Part shown: in pieces, positions 1,289 through 9,276 of the stretch
How positions within the stretch are numbered: position 1 is the stretch's first letter
Layout: each line of letters starts with the position of its first letter
DNA from: Syntrophomonadaceae bacterium
GTDB lineage: Bacteria; Bacillota; Syntrophomonadia; Syntrophomonadales; Syntrophomonadaceae
DNA: 42,381 nucleotides
Reading direction: 5' to 3'
Assembly (NCBI GenBank): GCA_012729715.1
Contig: JAAYCQ010000229.1
Span: forward strand, 1-42,381
The notes under the pieces: model-generated
What the model saw: only the letters and a program-made list of their open reading frames with translations
What the model was told of the DNA's origin: nothing
The model's database searches: none
Program-made: the position numbers and the translations under genes

Positions 1289-4003
1289 CTAAGCTTTAAT
1301 TTTACCATATTCAAAACCTGAAAGGAAAAGTCTCTGCCAGGTATACAATATAAATTTCCACAGCAGTCTAAAGCCGCTGATAAGAAGTATCAATACCCAT
1401 TGCCAGCCATCAAGCGGTACGGTTTTAAATACATGCTGGAAAAAGGGCAGGTAAATTATTAACATTTGCATAAATACCGAACAAATAACGGCAAAAACCA
1501 AAAAGCGGTTGCCGAAAAAGCCCAGTTCAAAAGGAGATAATTGTTCTGAACGGCACTCAAAGACATAAAACAGCTGGGCAAACACCAGGGTGGTTAAGGC
1601 CATAGTGCGGGCCACAGCAAGATTCTCAGCCCCATACCAGCGACTGACTACCAAACCCGCAGTAAATGCCAAAAGAGTTACTATAGCAATATATATTCCG
1701 CGTTTAAATATCATTGCTCCCAGACCCCGGGCGAATATATCTTCAGTACGCGGCCGGGGTTGGCGCCGCATTATTCCCGGTTCCGGCGGTTCCAGTCCCA
1801 GGGCCATAGCGGGAAGACCGTCAGTAACCAGGTTAATCCACAGAATCTGAATGGGCAGCAAAGGAAGCGGCATACCAAGGAGGGATGCGGTAAACATTAC
1901 CAGAACCTCCCCGATGTTACAACCCAAAAGATACCTGATAAACTTCCTTATATTATCATAGATAGCCCGCCCTTCATAAACTGCATTAACAATAGTTGAG
2001 AAGTTATCATCCGCCAGAATCATAGCTGAGGCTTCGCGACTGACTTCAGTTCCTGTAATACCCATGGCTACACCAATATCAGACGCTTTTAAAGCCGGGG
2101 CATCATTAACCCCGTCACCGGTCATAGCTACCACATGACCGTGTTTTTTAAGCACTTTAACTATGCGATTTTTATGCTGCGGAGATACCCGGGCAAAAAC
2201 CCTGTTCTTAACTGCTCCCTGATAAAGTTGTTCATCCTGCATTTTATCTATCTGAGGACCGGTAATTACTCCGCCTTTATCAGCTATACCAATTTCGGCA
2301 GCAATGGCCCGGGCGGTAATGGGATGGTCACCGGTAATCATCAGGGGTATTATCCCGGCTCTGATACATTCATTAACCGAATCCTTTACTCCTGCCCGGG
2401 GAGGATCGATCATACCGCATATTCCTGCGAAAGTAAGATTTGTTTCCATTTCGCGGTTGTCAATATGATGGCAATCGTGAGGATTTAGTTTTTTATAAGC
2501 AAAACCAAGTACCCGCAAGGCCTGGGCAGCCCATTCCTCCTGTATATCATTAAGATAATTGTGGTGTCGGGGCTGTAGTACTGAAATACGCCCGTTTTCC
2601 ATTACCTGTGAGCAAAGAGAAGTTATTATTTCCAGGGCTCCTTTTACCAGCAGGATATGTTCACCGTTTTTTTCAATTACTACACTCATCAGTTTACGTT
2701 CGGAATCAAAGGGAATCTCCTTCAGACGATTATAAGAGGGTCTTATACCTGCTTTAGCGGCCAGTACCAGCAGGGCACCTTCGGTGGGGTCACCGGTTAT
2801 TTCATAGTCACCCCTGATTTTTTCCAGGGTGGAGTTGTTGCAGTTGGCGGCAATATCAAGTAACATTCTGCAGGCAATATCGTCCCCTGGTTTTATAGTT
2901 TTTCCACCCACTGTAAATCTGCCTTTAGGATTATAACCCTCACCTTCCACAAATATTTTTTTATCCAGGGTTGCCATTCTTCTTACCGTCATTTTATTCT
3001 GGGTCAGAGTTCCGGTTTTATCAGAGCATATTACGGTAGTACAGCCCAGGGTTTCTACTGCGGGTAAACGCCTGATTATGGCATTCCTTTTGGCCATTCT
3101 CTGAACCCCCAGAGCCAGTACAATAGTTACAATAGCAGGTAAACCTTCAGGAATTGCTGCTACCGCCAGGCTAATACCGGCAAGGAACATAGTCACCATA
3201 TCTTCACCCCGGTAAATACCCATCAAGGTAACCAGGCCACAAACTAGCAGACATATTACAATCAGGTATTTACCCAGTTGATCCAGTTTAATCTGCAGGG
3301 GAGTCATGTCTTGTTTTTCATTTTTCATCATGCGGGCAATCTGCCCCATTACAGTATCCATTCCCGTTGCTATTACTACCGCCTTACCCCTTCCGCGGGT
3401 TACCCCGGTTCCCATAAATGCCATGTTATTGACATCAGCTAGAGGTATTTCCTGGTCAAACTGAGCGAAGGGGTCTTTTGCTATTGGTACAGACTCACCA
3501 GTAAGGGAGGCTTCATCAATTTCCAGGCTGCTGCTTTCCAAAAGTCTGAGATCAGCCGGAATGCGGTCACCTGCTTCAATATAAACGATATCTCCGGCCA
3601 AAAGTTCTTGAGCCGGAATGTTAATCTTCTTCCCATCTCGTAATACCCGGGCATAGGGTGCTGCCAGATTTTTAATCTCTTCCAGGGAACGTTCGGCGCG
3701 GTACTCCTGAATAAATCCCAGTATCGCATTTAATATTACAATTGCCATTATAGTTATGGCATCAGCCATAGCACCTATAATCCCGGAAATTACGGTTGCA
3801 CAAAGAAGAACAATAACCATAGTATCAGTGAACTGTTTAAAAAAGATAGAGAGAGGACTAATCTTTTGTCCTTCTTCCAAAACATTGGCATGCTCAGCAG
3901 CTCTTTTTTCAACTTCCTTGCTATTCAGGCCTCCGTCGCTGTTGGTCTTAAGCAATTCCAGTATATTTTCTATACTTTCTTGATACCAGAGGGAGTTTAT
4001 CAT
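1289..4003 (-). CDS. P-type Ca2+-transporting ATPase (type IIA)
   Basis: This is a membrane pump that uses ATP to move Ca2+ (possibly Mn2+) out of the cytoplasm. The 904-residue length matches the SERCA/PMR1-like type. In order the protein shows an N-terminal cation-ATPase domain, the actuator motif TGES, the transmembrane-4 motif PEGLP, the phosphorylation motif DKTGTLT, the hinge TGDGVNDAP, and a C-terminal group of membrane helices. The ATG follows a clear GGAGG. It is transcribed away from the PHA operon terminator, so it probably has its own promoter. Substrate choice between Ca2+ and Mn2+ cannot be settled by eye. Confidence 0.93.
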   Translation of the reverse strand: MINSLWYQESIENILELLKTNSDGGLNSKEVEKRAAEHANVLEEGQKISPLSIFFKQFTDTMVIVLLCATVISGIIGAMADAITIMAIVILNAILGFIQEYRAERSLEEIKNLAAPYARVLRDGKKINIPAQELLAGDIVYIEAGDRIPADLRLLESSSLEIDEASLTGESVPIAKDPFAQFDQEIPLADVNNMAFMGTGVTRGRGKAVVIATGMDTVMGQIARMMKNEKQDMTPLQIKLDQLGKYLIVICLLVCGLVTLMGIYRGEDMVTMFLAGISLAVAAIPEGLPAIVTIVLALGVQRMAKRNAIIRRLPAVETLGCTTVICSDKTGTLTQNKMTVRRMATLDKKIFVEGEGYNPKGRFTVGGKTIKPGDDIACRMLLDIAANCNNSTLEKIRGDYEITGDPTEGALLVLAAKAGIRPSYNRLKEIPFDSERKLMSVVIEKNGEHILLVKGALEIITSLCSQVMENGRISVLQPRHHNYLNDIQEEWAAQALRVLGFAYKKLNPHDCHHIDNREMETNLTFAGICGMIDPPRAGVKDSVNECIRAGIIPLMITGDHPITARAIAAEIGIADKGGVITGPQIDKMQDEQLYQGAVKNRVFARVSPQHKNRIVKVLKKHGHVVAMTGDGVNDAPALKASDIGVAMGITGTEVSREASAMILADDNFSTIVNAVYEGRAIYDNIRKFIRYLLGCNIGEVLVMFTASLLGMPLPLLPIQILWINLVTDGLPAMALGLEPPEPGIMRRQPRPRTEDIFARGLGAMIFKRGIYIAIVTLLAFTAGLVVSRWYGAENLAVARTMALTTLVFAQLFYVFECRSEQLSPFELGFFGNRFLVFAVICSVFMQMLIIYLPFFQHVFKTVPLDGWQWVLILLISGFRLLWKFILYTWQRLFLSGFEYGKIKA

Positions 4004-4118: not shown

Positions 4119-5210
4119 TTAAGATCTCTCCCCCAGCCACGAGCTGATGATGGGAAATACTTTATTTTTGGCTATACCCCCGAAAACTAATCCTCCATGT
4201 CCTATCGGGAATTCATAATAACTCTTATCTGAGGAATTCATATAATCCATAGCTACTCTGGCCTGGTGGGGTAAAACAATATGGTCTTTTTCCCCTGCCA
4301 GTACCAGCAAGGCAGCGTCAATATTTTTAAGATTTACCTGCTGGCCACGAAGATAAAATCCCCCTTTAATCAACAGATTTTCCTGGTACATATCGCGAAT
4401 CCATTGCCTGTAGGCACCACCGGGAAAATTAGTATTGTCGTTTACCCACTTGTTCAGAACTTTCCATGATTTAACAGACATACCCTCATCTATTACCTTC
4501 CACAAACGGGTATAAGTACCCCAGAAATTATTAACCGGATTCAACATTTTAACCCCATAATCAACAAAGCTACTGGGTACCAATTCAAAAGTATCGGCAA
4601 TTTTGTCAGCATCAAAAGCTCCGGAATTAATCCATTTGGACGATATTCCGGCGTCCTCGAAATCAAAGGGAGCAGCAAGAAATACCATATTCCTGACCCG
4701 GGGTAGTTCAAAGATTGAGGCATACATGGCCGCCATGGTTCCGCCCATACAATATCCGATTATATTTAGCTCATCGCAACGAGAAAACTGGCAGACTTTG
4801 TGAACTGCATGGGCTATATAATCAAATACCAGGTCAGCAAAGGTTAGGTGGCGATCCTCCCATTCAAAATCTCCCCACTCCAGCATATATACATCAAAAC
4901 CCTCATCCACCAGATGTTCAACCAGACTCATCCCGGGAGTAAGATCAAGGACATAGGCTTTATTAATCAAGGCATAAAGTATTAGTACCGGAGTTCGGTG
5001 CTTAATACCATTGCCACAGTAGCGGTATAGTTTGGACTTATTTTTGCGCCAAACAACATCTTTGGGGGTCATACCAGTTTGCGGATCCGGGTCAAAACTA
5101 ATTATTTCTGCCCATTTACGAGTACTATCCAAAATACGGTCATAGCTTTCCTGTAATTTTTCTCCTACTTCGTCAGCACTACCACTTAACAAATATGATT
5201 TCTTCCCCAT
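4119..5210 (-). CDS. phaC: Polyhydroxyalkanoate synthase, catalytic subunit (class III/IV)
   Basis: This enzyme polymerises (R)-3-hydroxyacyl-CoA into PHA at the granule surface. The protein is an alpha/beta hydrolase of about 363 residues, the size of class III/IV PhaC; class I enzymes are near 600. The lipase-like box GYCMGG gives the nucleophile C154. The other triad members appear to be D309 (GEKDH) and H338 (GHGG). I chose the ATG at 5210, which has GAGG about 9 bases upstream; an in-frame GTG lies 15 bases further up. It starts one base after the stop of the hydratase gene, which suggests translational coupling. Confidence 0.94.
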   Translation of the reverse strand: MGKKSYLLSGSADEVGEKLQESYDRILDSTRKWAEIISFDPDPQTGMTPKDVVWRKNKSKLYRYCGNGIKHRTPVLILYALINKAYVLDLTPGMSLVEHLVDEGFDVYMLEWGDFEWEDRHLTFADLVFDYIAHAVHKVCQFSRCDELNIIGYCMGGTMAAMYASIFELPRVRNMVFLAAPFDFEDAGISSKWINSGAFDADKIADTFELVPSSFVDYGVKMLNPVNNFWGTYTRLWKVIDEGMSVKSWKVLNKWVNDNTNFPGGAYRQWIRDMYQENLLIKGGFYLRGQQVNLKNIDAALLVLAGEKDHIVLPHQARVAMDYMNSSDKSYYEFPIGHGGLVFGGIAKNKVFPIISSWLGERS

Positions 5211-5211
5211 T

Positions 5212-5670
5212 TTATAATCCCTCACTGATTTGTTTTAATGTCCGTTCAATAATATGTTTACGCGGTGGTATAACTATGGCTACGCCGTCCAGAATTACTT
5301 CATCATTCTGGTTAAAACAACAGGTTCGTAATTTTACTCTTCCCCGGGGTAGTTTTTCTACCACTTCGGTTTGAGCGCGTACAGTATCATTAATATAGCA
5401 AGGTGCTAAAAAATCAATATTTTGCGTTTCGTAAATGGTTCCGGCACCAGGCATACGGTTACCTACTACATTTGAGATAAGACCAATAAGCAGCATACCA
5501 TGAACTACACGGGTTTTAAAATGACCCCTGCGGGCTCTGACCTCGTTGACATGAAGCCAGCTAAAGTCTCCGGTTATGCCTGCATAAAGATAAACATCAG
5601 TTTCCGTAATGGTTTTTTCTATATACGCTTTATCCCCCACTTTTAATTCACTATATATATGTTCTATCAT
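5212..5670 (-). CDS. phaJ: MaoC-like (R)-specific enoyl-CoA hydratase
   Basis: This 152-residue hot-dog-fold protein of the MaoC family probably hydrates trans-2-enoyl-CoA to (R)-3-hydroxyacyl-CoA. That step would feed beta-oxidation intermediates to the PHA synthase encoded next to it. The hydratase signature is visible as TGDFSWLHVNE, with the catalytic Asp and His, followed by the HGML segment. The gene sits between the PhaR/PhaE-like gene and phaC, almost abutting phaC. The function is well supported by family and context; chain-length preference is not visible. Confidence 0.87.
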   Translation of the reverse strand: MIEHIYSELKVGDKAYIEKTITETDVYLYAGITGDFSWLHVNEVRARRGHFKTRVVHGMLLIGLISNVVGNRMPGAGTIYETQNIDFLAPCYINDTVRAQTEVVEKLPRGRVKLRTCCFNQNDEVILDGVAIVIPPRKHIIERTLKQISEGL

Positions 5671-5691
5671 TAAACCACATCCCCCATAAAA

Positions 5692-6246
5692 TTAACTCTC
5701 GCTATCTTTTTTCTTACTCTTTCCGGATTTGGTTACGGGCCTGGCGGCTTCACTTTTAACTTCCTGAGAACGGGTTTTCGCATTTAACTTTTTATTAATA
5801 GTATCCAGTTTCTTGTTAATACTGGCAGTTTGCTCTTTTAATTCTGCTATTTCCTGTTTCATAACCTCCTGATAATCTACCAGTCTTATTATGCTGTTGG
5901 TAATTTTGGTGATATTATCGTAGAAATGCAGGTCAAAATCATCCACTTTATCTTCAAGCCCTATTATGAGTTCAGCGATCCTGGCTACATCCTTTTTAGA
6001 TGGAAGCGGATTTACTTCCAGGTACTGGTCCATATTTTGTTGCGAAACTTTATGGAAAGATAAGTACTGGTCTCTGATCTGATCTAAAACTTTGATAAAG
6101 CTTTTGCTGGCTATGAGTTCCCTGGTAGCAACAGACCAGGATTCTTCGGCGTTAAAATATAATTCCTTCCATAGCTCTACGATATCAGGCATGCTGACAT
6201 TATTTCCTGTTTCTGCCTGCTTCTGCTTAGCCTTTTCTTCTGGCAT
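5692..6246 (-). CDS. PhaR/PhaE-like PHA synthase subunit
   Basis: This 184-residue helical protein resembles the small partner subunit that class III (PhaE) or class IV (PhaR) synthases need. It opens with a region like Bacillus PhaR (ELWKELY). In the middle it has a proline-containing turn, LPSKKDVARIAELI, typical of both families. Heptad-rich helices follow, then a Lys/Ser-rich tail. I cannot decide between PhaE and PhaR; the length is closer to PhaR. It lies second in the operon, with GGAGGG upstream of its ATG. Confidence 0.75.
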   Translation of the reverse strand: MPEEKAKQKQAETGNNVSMPDIVELWKELYFNAEESWSVATRELIASKSFIKVLDQIRDQYLSFHKVSQQNMDQYLEVNPLPSKKDVARIAELIIGLEDKVDDFDLHFYDNITKITNSIIRLVDYQEVMKQEIAELKEQTASINKKLDTINKKLNAKTRSQEVKSEAARPVTKSGKSKKKDSES

Positions 6247-6336
6247 AACCTATTTGCCCTCCTATCGTAATAAAAAAATACAACGCGGTTATGACCGGTG
6301 AAGGCCATAACCGCTAAACTGTAGTTCCCGAAAATA

Positions 6337-6681
6337 CTACAGGTTATCTACCTTTTTAGAGAGATCATCTACTTTTTTAGATAACTCGTCAATATAATTA
6401 AAAGTAGGAATTTCTAAATTATCAAATGCGTTTATAACTGCTTCCTGGATCATTTTTTGCATTTGCTGCTGATTCTTCTTAGCCTGATTAGTAAGTTCAT
6501 CAATAACCTTATTAGCCTCTTCCCGGGCTACTTTACGCTGTTCCAGATATTTACGCCCCATGTTCTCAATTTGTTCCTGAGACCAGGACATACTGCCAAA
6601 TGTTACTAACCACATATCCCATAGTTTCTCACTTGAATTTTCTAACATAGCAAATGTTTTGGTAATATTCTCATTGCTCAT
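6337..6681 (-). CDS. Phasin-like granule-associated protein
   Basis: This is a small 114-residue, all-helical, amphipathic protein with a heptad-rich C-terminus (DELSKKVDDLSKKVDNL), like phasins that coat PHA granules. It is the first gene of the PHA operon and has a strong GGAAGGAG ribosome site before the ATG. A structural granule-coating role fits position and composition. The call rests on context and general character because no catalytic motif is expected. Confidence 0.62.
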   Translation of the reverse strand: MSNENITKTFAMLENSSEKLWDMWLVTFGSMSWSQEQIENMGRKYLEQRKVAREEANKVIDELTNQAKKNQQQMQKMIQEAVINAFDNLEIPTFNYIDELSKKVDDLSKKVDNL

Positions 6682-6774
6682 AAAATCACTCCTTCCCCAA
6701 ATAAAAGAATTCTGTCCCGGGTTTTAAGTTGCATCCCCCCTTTCCCCTTGTATTGTTATCCGAAAACAGAATCA

Positions 6775-6857
6775 ATAGTTTATATTTTCTTAAGGAGAAA
6801 ATAATTAACTTTCCAACCGATAATAGTTTATGATACTTTCCTGGTATTGTAAACTAT
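6775..6857. promoter_or_regulatory. Candidate operator upstream of the PHA operon
   Basis: An imperfect palindrome at 6823-6857 has 14-base arms (ATAGTTTATGATAC and GTATTGTAAACTAT) around a 7-base spacer. A third half-site, ATAGTTTATA, lies at 6775-6784. This placement in the 265-base gap before the first PHA gene suggests binding of a dimeric regulator, perhaps a PHA-responsive repressor. I see no convincing -35/-10 pair. Confidence 0.42.
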
Positions 6858-6946
6858 GAAATACAGTTGTTAGAGGGATTAATTGAACAAGAAATGCTGT
6901 TAAATTACCATAATTAATAAATTAACGATTTAGATAAGTATTATCC

Positions 6947-7567
6947 TTACAAAATATTAAGTAGTTGACGGCAGTTATCTGGCTGGAATTCATTTTCATC
7001 GACCGCGGTAATAAAAGTCATGTGTTCATATTCATAGCGCTGGTTGGTAGCAAGGTTGCTATAGATCCCGTAGGATTTTAGAACAAATTCAGTTACTCTT
7101 TCTCCAAACAACAATAAATAGGTAGGGTGTAGAATTTCTATTTCCTCTAGTAGAAAAGACAGGCAGGAAATGATTTCACTGTTACCTGGTTTGACCGGTA
7201 TACCGTCACAAGTCTTATTACTGAGCAAACAAGTATAATCTTTATCAATCCATTTTCCCTCGCCATAACAGGTAACACTTTGTCTGGTAGCACAAGCTTT
7301 CGGTTGGCATCTGACCATAAATGTGTGGTAGATTTTATCCAGTTTAAGTTCTTGTTTAATAATGTTTCGCAATCTAATAATATTATTAATATCCCTGGTA
7401 TAACTATTTTCATATTCAAAGATTAACAAAGCTTCCGGATCTAATTCGCCTTTACCCATAGATGGCTTTCTCAGGCATTTAACCAGTGATGGGCAACGTT
7501 GACATTGGCATATCCTGTCTTCCATCTCAATAATGCGGCGGATGTTTTGTTCTCTATTGCCTACCAC
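6947..7567 (-). CDS. Degenerate family-4-like uracil-DNA glycosylase, Fe-S type
   Basis: The 206-residue protein has the outline of the Fe-S uracil-DNA glycosylase superfamily. C22 and C25 form an N-terminal CxxC, C87 lies in RCQP where family 4 has KCRP, and C135 lies in EIISCLSFL. Those four match the usual cluster ligands. The catalytic motifs are not recognisable: the GExPG-type loop reads IFEYENSY and no HPS-type motif appears near the C-terminus. An insertion at about 88-122 adds C92, C100, C113 and C120. It may bind nucleic acid or a cluster without glycosylase activity. The start is a GTG with a G-rich ribosome site. Confidence 0.6.
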   Translation of the reverse strand: MVGNREQNIRRIIEMEDRICQCQRCPSLVKCLRKPSMGKGELDPEALLIFEYENSYTRDINNIIRLRNIIKQELKLDKIYHTFMVRCQPKACATRQSVTCYGEGKWIDKDYTCLLSNKTCDGIPVKPGNSEIISCLSFLLEEIEILHPTYLLLFGERVTEFVLKSYGIYSNLATNQRYEYEHMTFITAVDENEFQPDNCRQLLNIL

Positions 7568-7717
7568 TATTTTGCCCCCCTAAACTCCTTACTCCTCCTA
7601 AATTATTTATATTACATTGATTAAACCATATACTTTAATACATTCTACAGATTATTCAACACATATATTAATTATTCCTTCTCAGGGAAATATTTTTTAA
7701 AATGTATTTTTAAGTCA

Positions 7718-8101
7718 TTACTTAATCTTATATAAATATTCCCTGGTAGAGGAACCAATTCCCCAGGTAGCGTCACCAAGTTTGGTGCATACATAACTGC
7801 GAAGATTTTCATCTAGTTCAGGATCACCTATATCAAAGACAATATAGAATGCTCTTAATACATCCATCATATTGGTCATCAGCCGTTCTGGCGGAGCCTT
7901 TTTTAACAGTGCATCCTTCTTACCATAAAAATATATCAAACGCTTTAAGACCCACAGAATTTCAACATTTGACCATGTTTTTTGTTTAGTAATTTCATCT
8001 AGTAATTGCTCCGGACCAATTTCATATTCTCTTTTTTCAATATCATTCCATTCCTTGCTACCGAAAACTGTAGCAGGGATTCCAAAAATATTGTCTTCCA
8101 C
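7718..8101 (-). CDS. Hypothetical protein, 127 residues
   Basis: I do not recognise this protein. It is soluble, mixed charged and hydrophobic, and probably helical in the middle, with no signal peptide or membrane segment. The GTG start at 8101 has a textbook GGAGG about 7 bases upstream, which supports a real gene. It is separated by about 150 bases from the UDG-like gene downstream and by a 335-base gap from the PHP gene. Confidence 0.6.
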   Translation of the reverse strand: MEDNIFGIPATVFGSKEWNDIEKREYEIGPEQLLDEITKQKTWSNVEILWVLKRLIYFYGKKDALLKKAPPERLMTNMMDVLRAFYIVFDIGDPELDENLRSYVCTKLGDATWGIGSSTREYLYKIK

Positions 8102-8436
8102 CTTTATACCTCCGATGTAAAGTTAGATATAGTAATACCTGTGCCTGTAAATATATGTACCCAAATAATTGTTTTTCGTCAAGGATATGCCCCGATGCTT
8201 AATGAAATAATAGGAATAAATTACCCGTTTCTAAAGTAAATAGCAATATGATTGCTGCAGGAAGAATTACCAGTAAGTTAATACCAGGTCTTTGAAGAAA
8301 TTGATTTAAGGTTTGTTTCTACAAGAATCAAGATAAATCCTGCTTTATTTTAAATTATATTACTGAACTTAGAATTAACATAAATAGATAAAGAAAAAAG
8401 CTATACATAAAATTATGGACCAAATTTCACGTTAGT
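8102..8436. other. 335-base gap with no supported gene
   Basis: The stretch is AT-rich. A plus-strand open frame ends at 8239 and its last third (about 8110-8239) reads like plausible protein, but it begins inside the neighbouring minus-strand gene and stop codons follow in every frame. It could be a decayed gene remnant. I see no clear terminator or promoter. Confidence 0.4.
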
Positions 8437-9276
8437 TTATTCTTTATGATTAAGGTAGGCATACATTTGATTCACTAAATCTTTAGAGACACCGGCAGAA
8501 CCCATATTGGTCCGGCTTTCCGAACTTGCCGGACCATGATAATCCGAGCCTCCGGTAATTAACAAGCGGTGATGCCGGGCTAACTCCATGAGTTCATCGA
8601 TTTGTTCCGGACTATGTTCAGGATAGAAAACCTCTAAACCCTCTATGCCTGAATTGATAATCTCTGTTACTTTATCTTTATGTTGGATTAAGCCAGGATG
8701 AGCTAACACCGCAATACCACCAGCATTTTTTATCAGTTCAATAGCCTCCTGCGGTAAAAATTTATAGCGGGGAACATAGCCTGGCGATCCCCGTCCTATA
8801 TACTTAGCGAAAGCTTCCGGGATACTAGTACAATATTGATTATTCATCAGAGCCCTGGCAATATGGGGCCGGGCTATTAATTCTCCCTGGGCCAATGCTT
8901 GTACGTGTTCAAAAGTAATTTTTAGCCCTAATTCCTGTAAACGGCCTACCATTTGCTCAGCTCTATGGTAGCGGGAATTGCGAATTTCCAGTAAACGCTG
9001 GTTTAAAGCAACATTTTCAGGGTCAATAAAATATCCCAGAATATGCACTTCATCTTCTCCGGCATCTGTGTTGAGTTCTATGGCCGGAATAAAGTCCAGG
9101 GAGTAAGAGGTAGTATCCAGGTATTGTCGGGCCTGTCCCAATCCTGCCACTGTATCATGGTCACTTATAGCAATTCCTTTTAAACCAATTTTAACCGCCA
9201 TATCGATTATTTCTTGCGGAGTCCGGACTCCATCCGAGGCGGTAGTGTGTATATGCAAATCATAATCAGGTTTCAT
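8437..9276 (-). CDS. PHP-domain phosphoesterase (YciV/RNase AM-like)
   Basis: This is a metal-dependent phosphoesterase of the PHP superfamily. Metal-binding motifs appear in order: DLHIHTTASDG near the N-terminus, ISDHDT, LAHPG and GSDYHG near the C-terminus. Length (about 279 residues) and motifs match the YciV/TrpH group, whose members hydrolyse 3',5'-bisphosphate nucleotides or trim RNA 5' ends. I chose the ATG at 9276, 8 bases after GGAGG; a TTG 15 bases upstream is in frame but lies at that ribosome site. Confidence 0.88.
   Translation of the reverse strand: MKPDYDLHIHTTASDGVRTPQEIIDMAVKIGLKGIAISDHDTVAGLGQARQYLDTTSYSLDFIPAIELNTDAGEDEVHILGYFIDPENVALNQRLLEIRNSRYHRAEQMVGRLQELGLKITFEHVQALAQGELIARPHIARALMNNQYCTSIPEAFAKYIGRGSPGYVPRYKFLPQEAIELIKNAGGIAVLAHPGLIQHKDKVTEIINSGIEGLEVFYPEHSPEQIDELMELARHHRLLITGGSDYHGPASSESRTNMGSAGVSKDLVNQMYAYLNHKE

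Follow-up and report, generated by a model that had tools for sequence, protein, structure and literature searches.

What does a UDG-like protein do when it keeps the iron-sulfur cysteines of family-4 UDGs but lacks their catalytic motifs? The question is raised by one gene in a 42,381-nt stretch (the window) of a contig of a Syntrophomonadaceae bacterium. The first-pass annotation placed this gene correctly at positions 6947-7567; it lies on the minus strand and is read from 7567 to 6947. Table 1 lists its parts and its neighbors. Residue counts refer to 41 orthologues, comprising the window protein and 40 further loci, and comparisons with ordinary UDGs refer to 21 paralogues, comprising the 20 best-scoring ordinary UDGs of the order Syntrophomonadales and the window genome's own copy.

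Table 1. Coordinates of the UDG-like gene, the parts of its coding frame and its neighboring genes in the window. Cluster cysteines are numbered by their order in the sequence.
Feature	Position	Strand	Support
P-type ATPase gene, frequent downstream neighbor	1289..4003	-	38/41 loci
PHA genes (phasin-like, PhaR-like, MaoC-like, PhaC)	4119..6681	-	adjoining in the window
UDG-like gene, 206 aa, GTG start	6947..7567	-	intact ORF
DEN (190-192) in place of motif B HPS/HPA	6992..7000	-	alignment and column counts
C135, cluster cysteine 4	7163..7165	-	41/41; aligned to family-4 UDGs
Insert 93-126, between cluster cysteines 3 and 4	7190..7291	-	spacing against paralogues
C113 and C120, both new and invariant, always 7 apart	7208..7231	-	41/41
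C92, new invariant cysteine; on the water-positioning Asn (Tth N89) in an ungapped reading	7292..7294	-	41/41
C87, cluster cysteine 3	7307..7309	-	41/41; aligned to family-4 UDGs
FEYEN (50-54) in place of motif A GEGPG	7406..7420	-	alignment and residue counts
G38-K39-G40	7448..7456	-	G38 and G40 in 41/41, K39 in 39/41
C31, kept, common to ordinary UDG paralogues too	7475..7477	-	40/41 orthologues, 20/21 paralogues
C22 and C25, cluster cysteines 1 and 2	7493..7504	-	41/41; aligned to family-4 UDG cysteines
AGGGGGG, likely ribosome-binding site, strong	7575..7581	-	sequence
127-aa protein gene, no known family, adjoining upstream	7718..8101	-	41/41 loci

Family membership and predicted fold

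The window protein contains a UDG domain by sequence, scoring 26.5 bits against the Pfam UDG family (PF03167, cut-off 24.3 bits), and falls far under the cut-offs of the NCBIfam family-4 UDG models (31.3 versus 250 bits and 22.3 versus 125.3 bits). A profile built from 30 orthologues aligns by hhalign with the 21 ordinary UDG paralogues over 146 columns (probability 89, E = 2.3e-6); as a control, the same profile aligned with an unrelated neighboring family gives a probability of 0.2%. Further, a profile search of the PDB returns the family-4 UDG 4zbx as its top match (E = 4.6e-7).

Structure prediction points the same way. When the alignment includes 44 phage UDGs (51 of 80 viral loci taken, six near-copies dropped and L218 left out), the predicted model reaches a pLDDT of 83.5 and a pTM of 0.83, with low pLDDT at residues 97-104 inside the insert; a model from five close orthologues alone, without the phage UDGs, has a pLDDT of 34. 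Searching with the predicted model, Foldseek finds 36 matches at E ≤ 0.001 (best E = 1.2e-8), every one a family-4 UDG or a UdgX, and VIA-align superimposes the model on 4zbx with a Z-score of 17.1 and an rmsd of 3.1 over 164 residues. The model is UDG-like with UDG sequences in its own input, and the sequence-profile results are for that reason the independent leg of the fold assignment. On sequence comparison and modeling together, the window protein belongs to the UDG fold, with a predicted three-dimensional structure, as the annotation had proposed from the letters of the gene.

Loss of the catalytic motifs

The absence of the active-site motifs, also noted at first pass, holds across the family with one qualification. 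In particular, GExPG is found in 0 of 41 orthologues and none has HP[SA] where motif B should be, but motif A is not entirely lost, because 31 of 41 retain E51, the counterpart of the motif-A Glu in the alignment. The position of the uracil-binding Asn (Tth N80) is occupied by Phe in 31 orthologues and Tyr in 10, and by Asn in none. The string HP[SA] appears somewhere in three orthologues (L085, L103 and L110) and never at the motif-B position; the nearest is that of L110, which falls at window residue 195 in the alignment, five beyond the motif-B columns 190-192. Within columns 186-199, His occurs in at most three of the 41 sequences per column, and the C-terminal stretch of the orthologues contains no conserved His or other motif standing in for the lost ones, so the catalytic residues have not moved to another place there. 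Just one His, H81, is largely conserved (38/41). The ordinary paralogues carry GEGPG, NxxKCRPP and HPAALLR in every case (21/21).

According to a study of Thermus UDGa (PMC5387724), the pocket of that enzyme consists of E41, G42, E47, F54, N80 and H155, N89 is proposed to place the water, and the H155S substitution alone reduces k2 more than a thousandfold. The motif loss in all 41 orthologues and the size of the H155S effect, taken together, make uracil excision by the window protein very unlikely, judging from its sequence.

Conserved cysteines and the insert

Seven cysteines are invariant in the 41 orthologues (C22, C25, C87, C92, C113, C120 and C135), and four of them (C22, C25, C87 and C135) align with the cluster cysteines of family-4 UDGs, in agreement with the initial reading. 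Overall, 18 columns are invariant in the 41 sequences and seven of these are Cys, in a protein with 11 Cys among 206 residues; the excess has a hypergeometric p of 3e-6, a statistic that ignores that Cys is often conserved. The insert with extra conserved cysteines is likewise present between cluster cysteines 3 and 4. However, of the four additional cysteines that had been counted toward a second site, C92, C113 and C120 are found in 41/41 orthologues while C100 is Cys in only 21/41. A further candidate, C31, is Cys in 40/41 orthologues (L121 has its Cys one residue further on), and is not supported as a new ligand, since 20/21 ordinary paralogues have it too; the new set is therefore C92, C113 and C120. 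Three new cysteines are one short of a complete second four-cysteine site, which would have to draw on C31 or some other ligand.

The distance from C87 to C135 is 48-53 in the orthologues versus 16 in 21/21 ordinary paralogues, which amounts to 32-37 extra residues between cluster cysteines 3 and 4. The spacings C87-C92 (5), C113-C120 (7) and C120-C135 (15) are constant in 41/41 orthologues, and the C92-C113 spacing varies from 21 to 26. An ungapped count from C87 puts F83 on Thermus N80 and C92 on Thermus N89, using the N80-N89 distance in Thermus and N124-N133 in the paralogue alignment; the placement of C92 is a reading, not proof, because hhalign opens a gap after C87-x4.

By eye, the layout of C120-x14-C135 (7163-7210, minus strand) resembles the ordinary stretch between the third and fourth cluster cysteines (C..P..P...E...C), as if partly copied. 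Because of this resemblance, C120 may serve in place of C87 as the third ligand of the first cluster.

Distribution and selection

Orthologues are present in 53 of 63 genomes of the Syntrophomonadales, each covering 164 or more of the 200 profile positions; one further match, in G022 (43 positions, E = 5e-5), falls within a frame that itself scores as an ordinary UDG. Across a phylum sample of 398 genomes there are 32 matches, of which 15 are long and all in the order, and 17 are weak stretches outside it. Twelve of these 17 were translated, with G234 read partly, and show GE(A/G)PG in ten, AEAPG in L073 and neither in L077; the weak stretches outside this group are L075, L079, L082 and the G081 and G269 matches. 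One order member in the phylum sample, G038, has no match to the UDG-like family. A short-pattern search, which also reached beyond the phylum, finds close relatives at four loci, two in Syntrophomonas and one each in Gelria and Syntrophomonadaceae.

The family is under purifying selection, with dN/dS values of 0.076-0.090 against three genus members and saturation against a fourth. An unrooted tree was built from 43 sequences: 16 of the 41 orthologues, 10 of the 21 paralogues, seven phylum UDGs and 10 viral UDGs. In it the UDG-like family forms one clade on a long stem (support 100/100) and the ordinary paralogues form a separate clade (100/99). Moreover, an ordinary UDG match at E = 1.2e-36 or better is found in 58/63 genomes of the order, and uracil repair is thus covered. 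The window genome also has a third UDG-superfamily protein (L161:2025-2564, 179 aa, PF03167 E = 4.1e-6), which is without the family-4 cysteines. In the open literature on inactive or unusual UDG paralogues and on Syntrophomonas UDGs, as far as search listings and the openings of abstracts show, there is nothing recognizable on the UDG-like protein.

Genomic neighborhood

The most constant neighbor is the gene for a 127-aa protein, which lies directly upstream on the same strand in 40/41 loci and 136 bases upstream in L088. It is kept upstream even in two outer families, where the genes further upstream differ. It occurs in 59/63 genomes of the order, including all 53 with the UDG-like gene and six without it (G011, G017, G020, G035, G038 and G042), and in 16/398 genomes of the phylum sample, all 16 of them in the order and 0/382 elsewhere; it is a signature protein of the order. 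The window copy has no Pfam, NCBIfam or PADLOC match, and Pfam searches with 30 other members of its family touch ten families, each in one or two members and at E = 0.015 or worse, while a PDB profile search gives a single match, a designed TIM barrel, at E = 0.016. The gap between the two genes (7568-7717, minus strand) contains a AGAAGGAA box, present in all five genus members aligned.

Downstream, three or more PHA genes separate the UDG-like gene from the P-type ATPase gene in only 9/41 loci, and a link to PHA genes is rejected as a general feature. In the window cluster, PhaC scores 343 bits versus the class III cut-off of 365 and PhaR 60.8 versus 148, and the synthase is therefore assigned to the PhaR type outside Bacillus. 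A PhaR-type synthase is known in S. wolfei, where a proteome study reports PhaR, PhaC and a dehydratase of the PHA cluster (PMC4324140); the word 'uracil' is absent from the main text of that study. The stretch 5600-8500 has a single terminator-like site, which follows the phasin-like gene at 6314-6285; this number does not exceed chance expectation.

The P-type ATPase gene lies within about 3.2 kb downstream in 38/41 loci. Ten genomes of the order lack the UDG-like gene; of these, four (G017, G020, G022 and G038) keep an ATPase match of 56-63% identity, G011 has a partial match of 55%, G018 and G042 have matches of 42-46% only, and in G035, G072 and G076 no match is found at E = 1e-100. At the locus in G035 a 70-aa C-terminal ATPase remnant stands in the usual ATPase place (L158:1140-1352), and the gene that follows the 127-aa gene is the ATPase in G038 and, from a reading of the ORF, a lepA-like gene in G011. 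A strict shared loss of the two genes is rejected, given the four genomes that keep the ATPase, and the joint-loss pattern is suggestive at most, because several of the genomes are incomplete. A phage or defense role is also rejected, with no viral-contig relatives by sequence patterns, no PADLOC match and PHROG matches at E = 0.0066 or worse.

Proposed function and alternatives

The UDG-like protein probably does a different job from an ordinary UDG, because the residues of uracil chemistry are lost, the iron-sulfur cysteines are kept and new cysteines are gained. We propose that the order's ancestor either acquired a family-4-related UDG or evolved one, and that this protein then lost its uracil chemistry, while its fold and [4Fe-4S] cysteines would have been kept as a scaffold that may still bind a cluster. 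The active-site region would have been rebuilt, with the uracil-binding Asn replaced by Phe or Tyr and the motif-B His lost, and C92 could form a second cysteine site with C113 and C120 of the insert, perhaps joined by the shared C31 or by H81, the site most likely holding Zn or an iron-sulfur cluster. A protein of this kind, without glycosylase activity, may sense or regulate through nucleic acids in response to redox or metal state, with the 127-aa upstream protein as a possible partner. To this reading (an iron-sulfur protein on a UDG fold, with no uracil excision, a second cysteine site and a sensing or regulatory role linked to nucleic acids) we give a probability of about 45%. The computed anatomy, from homology and predicted fold to lost motifs, conserved cysteines, selection, gene pair and clade, is well supported; metal binding, lack of activity and role are inferred from it. 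Nucleic-acid sensing or regulation is favored on two grounds, the descent of the family from DNA binders and its constant gene partner, although the lower net charge of the orthologues (median 0 versus +3 in ordinary UDGs) speaks mildly against nucleic-acid binding. The E51 retained in 31/41 orthologues and the six genomes that have the 127-aa gene alone also weigh against the proposal. A more specific form, in which the inherited [4Fe-4S] cluster and a second metal center on the former active site together would make a redox or metal sensor working with the order-typical 127-aa protein, is tentative and rather doubtful.

Alternatively, the insert could hold zinc in a structural role, with the protein acting as an adaptor or as an assembly partner of, say, the 127-aa protein, without any sensing. 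The constant C113-C120 spacing and the constant gene pair are consistent with such an adaptor, but the 127-aa gene persists without the UDG-like gene in the six genomes named above, and we consider this account unlikely.

The position of the new cysteines also allows for a nucleic-acid enzyme with cysteine chemistry, in which, by analogy with UdgX, a nucleophile in the insert region (C92, C113 or C120) would attack a sugar or a modified base. In its favor, C92 reads onto a catalytic position, and the R-loop of UdgX is presumably the same loop as the insert, lying between the third and fourth cluster cysteines. UdgX itself is regarded as an offshoot of family 4 that diverged through a change in a loop (PMC10359453). 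Such chemistry is nevertheless improbable for the window protein, as the base-recognition residue is aromatic in 41/41 orthologues, no conserved His or polar residue replaces motif B, KRRIH is found in 0/41, and the constant C113-C120 spacing resembles a metal knuckle.

The seven invariant cysteines together with C31, in anaerobic hosts, could instead belong to an electron-transfer protein that carries two iron-sulfur clusters on a UDG scaffold and takes part in syntrophic redox metabolism. Across the 41 loci, none of the constant neighbors is a redox gene, and the cysteine spacings depart from the usual ferredoxin pattern, CxxCxxC; this role appears quite improbable. A decaying UDG pseudogene or an assembly artefact would account for the missing catalytic motifs, but is rejected with near certainty by the low dN/dS, by stop-free orthologues in 53 genomes and by the invariance of the new residues.

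The family, as a nucleic-acid-linked iron-sulfur protein or otherwise, offers a clean example from nature of a repair-enzyme fold that has lasted throughout an order's history despite lacking the repair motifs, beside an ordinary copy in most genomes. To our knowledge, the purpose of the cluster in family-4 UDGs is not settled, and a paralogue with the cluster cysteines but without the chemistry would let cluster and catalysis be studied separately. The family is, in addition, one half of a constant gene pair whose other member matches no family searched.

Comparison with known systems

The predicted fold is closest to the family-4 UDGs (UDGa; 4zbx, 1vk2/1l9g and 1ui0), with Z-scores of 14.2-17.1 and the same four cluster-cysteine positions. 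Unlike these enzymes, the UDG-like family is without GExPG, the uracil-binding Asn and the motif-B HPS, and it has the extra residues, with their new invariant cysteines, between cluster cysteines 3 and 4. UdgX is similar in predicted fold (Z = 13.2-14.2) and in having a changed loop near the pocket. However, UdgX contains GEQPG, HPS and KRRIH, none of which stands at its place in the 41 orthologues, where G[EQ]xPG is found in 0/41, KRRIH is absent throughout and HPS does not occur at the motif-B place. A more distant likeness is found in the phiLo family-A DNA polymerase (9qhs), whose chain residues 34-203 form a UDG-like region (Z = 11.3), though this region is part of a polymerase and its Foldseek E-value is only 1.6e-3. 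Finally, the ordinary UDG paralogues, including the window genome's own copy (G000:C122:12992-13429), share with the UDG-like family the UDG domain and the positions of C22, C25, C31, C87 and C135, and differ from it in forming their own clade and in keeping all of the catalytic motifs.
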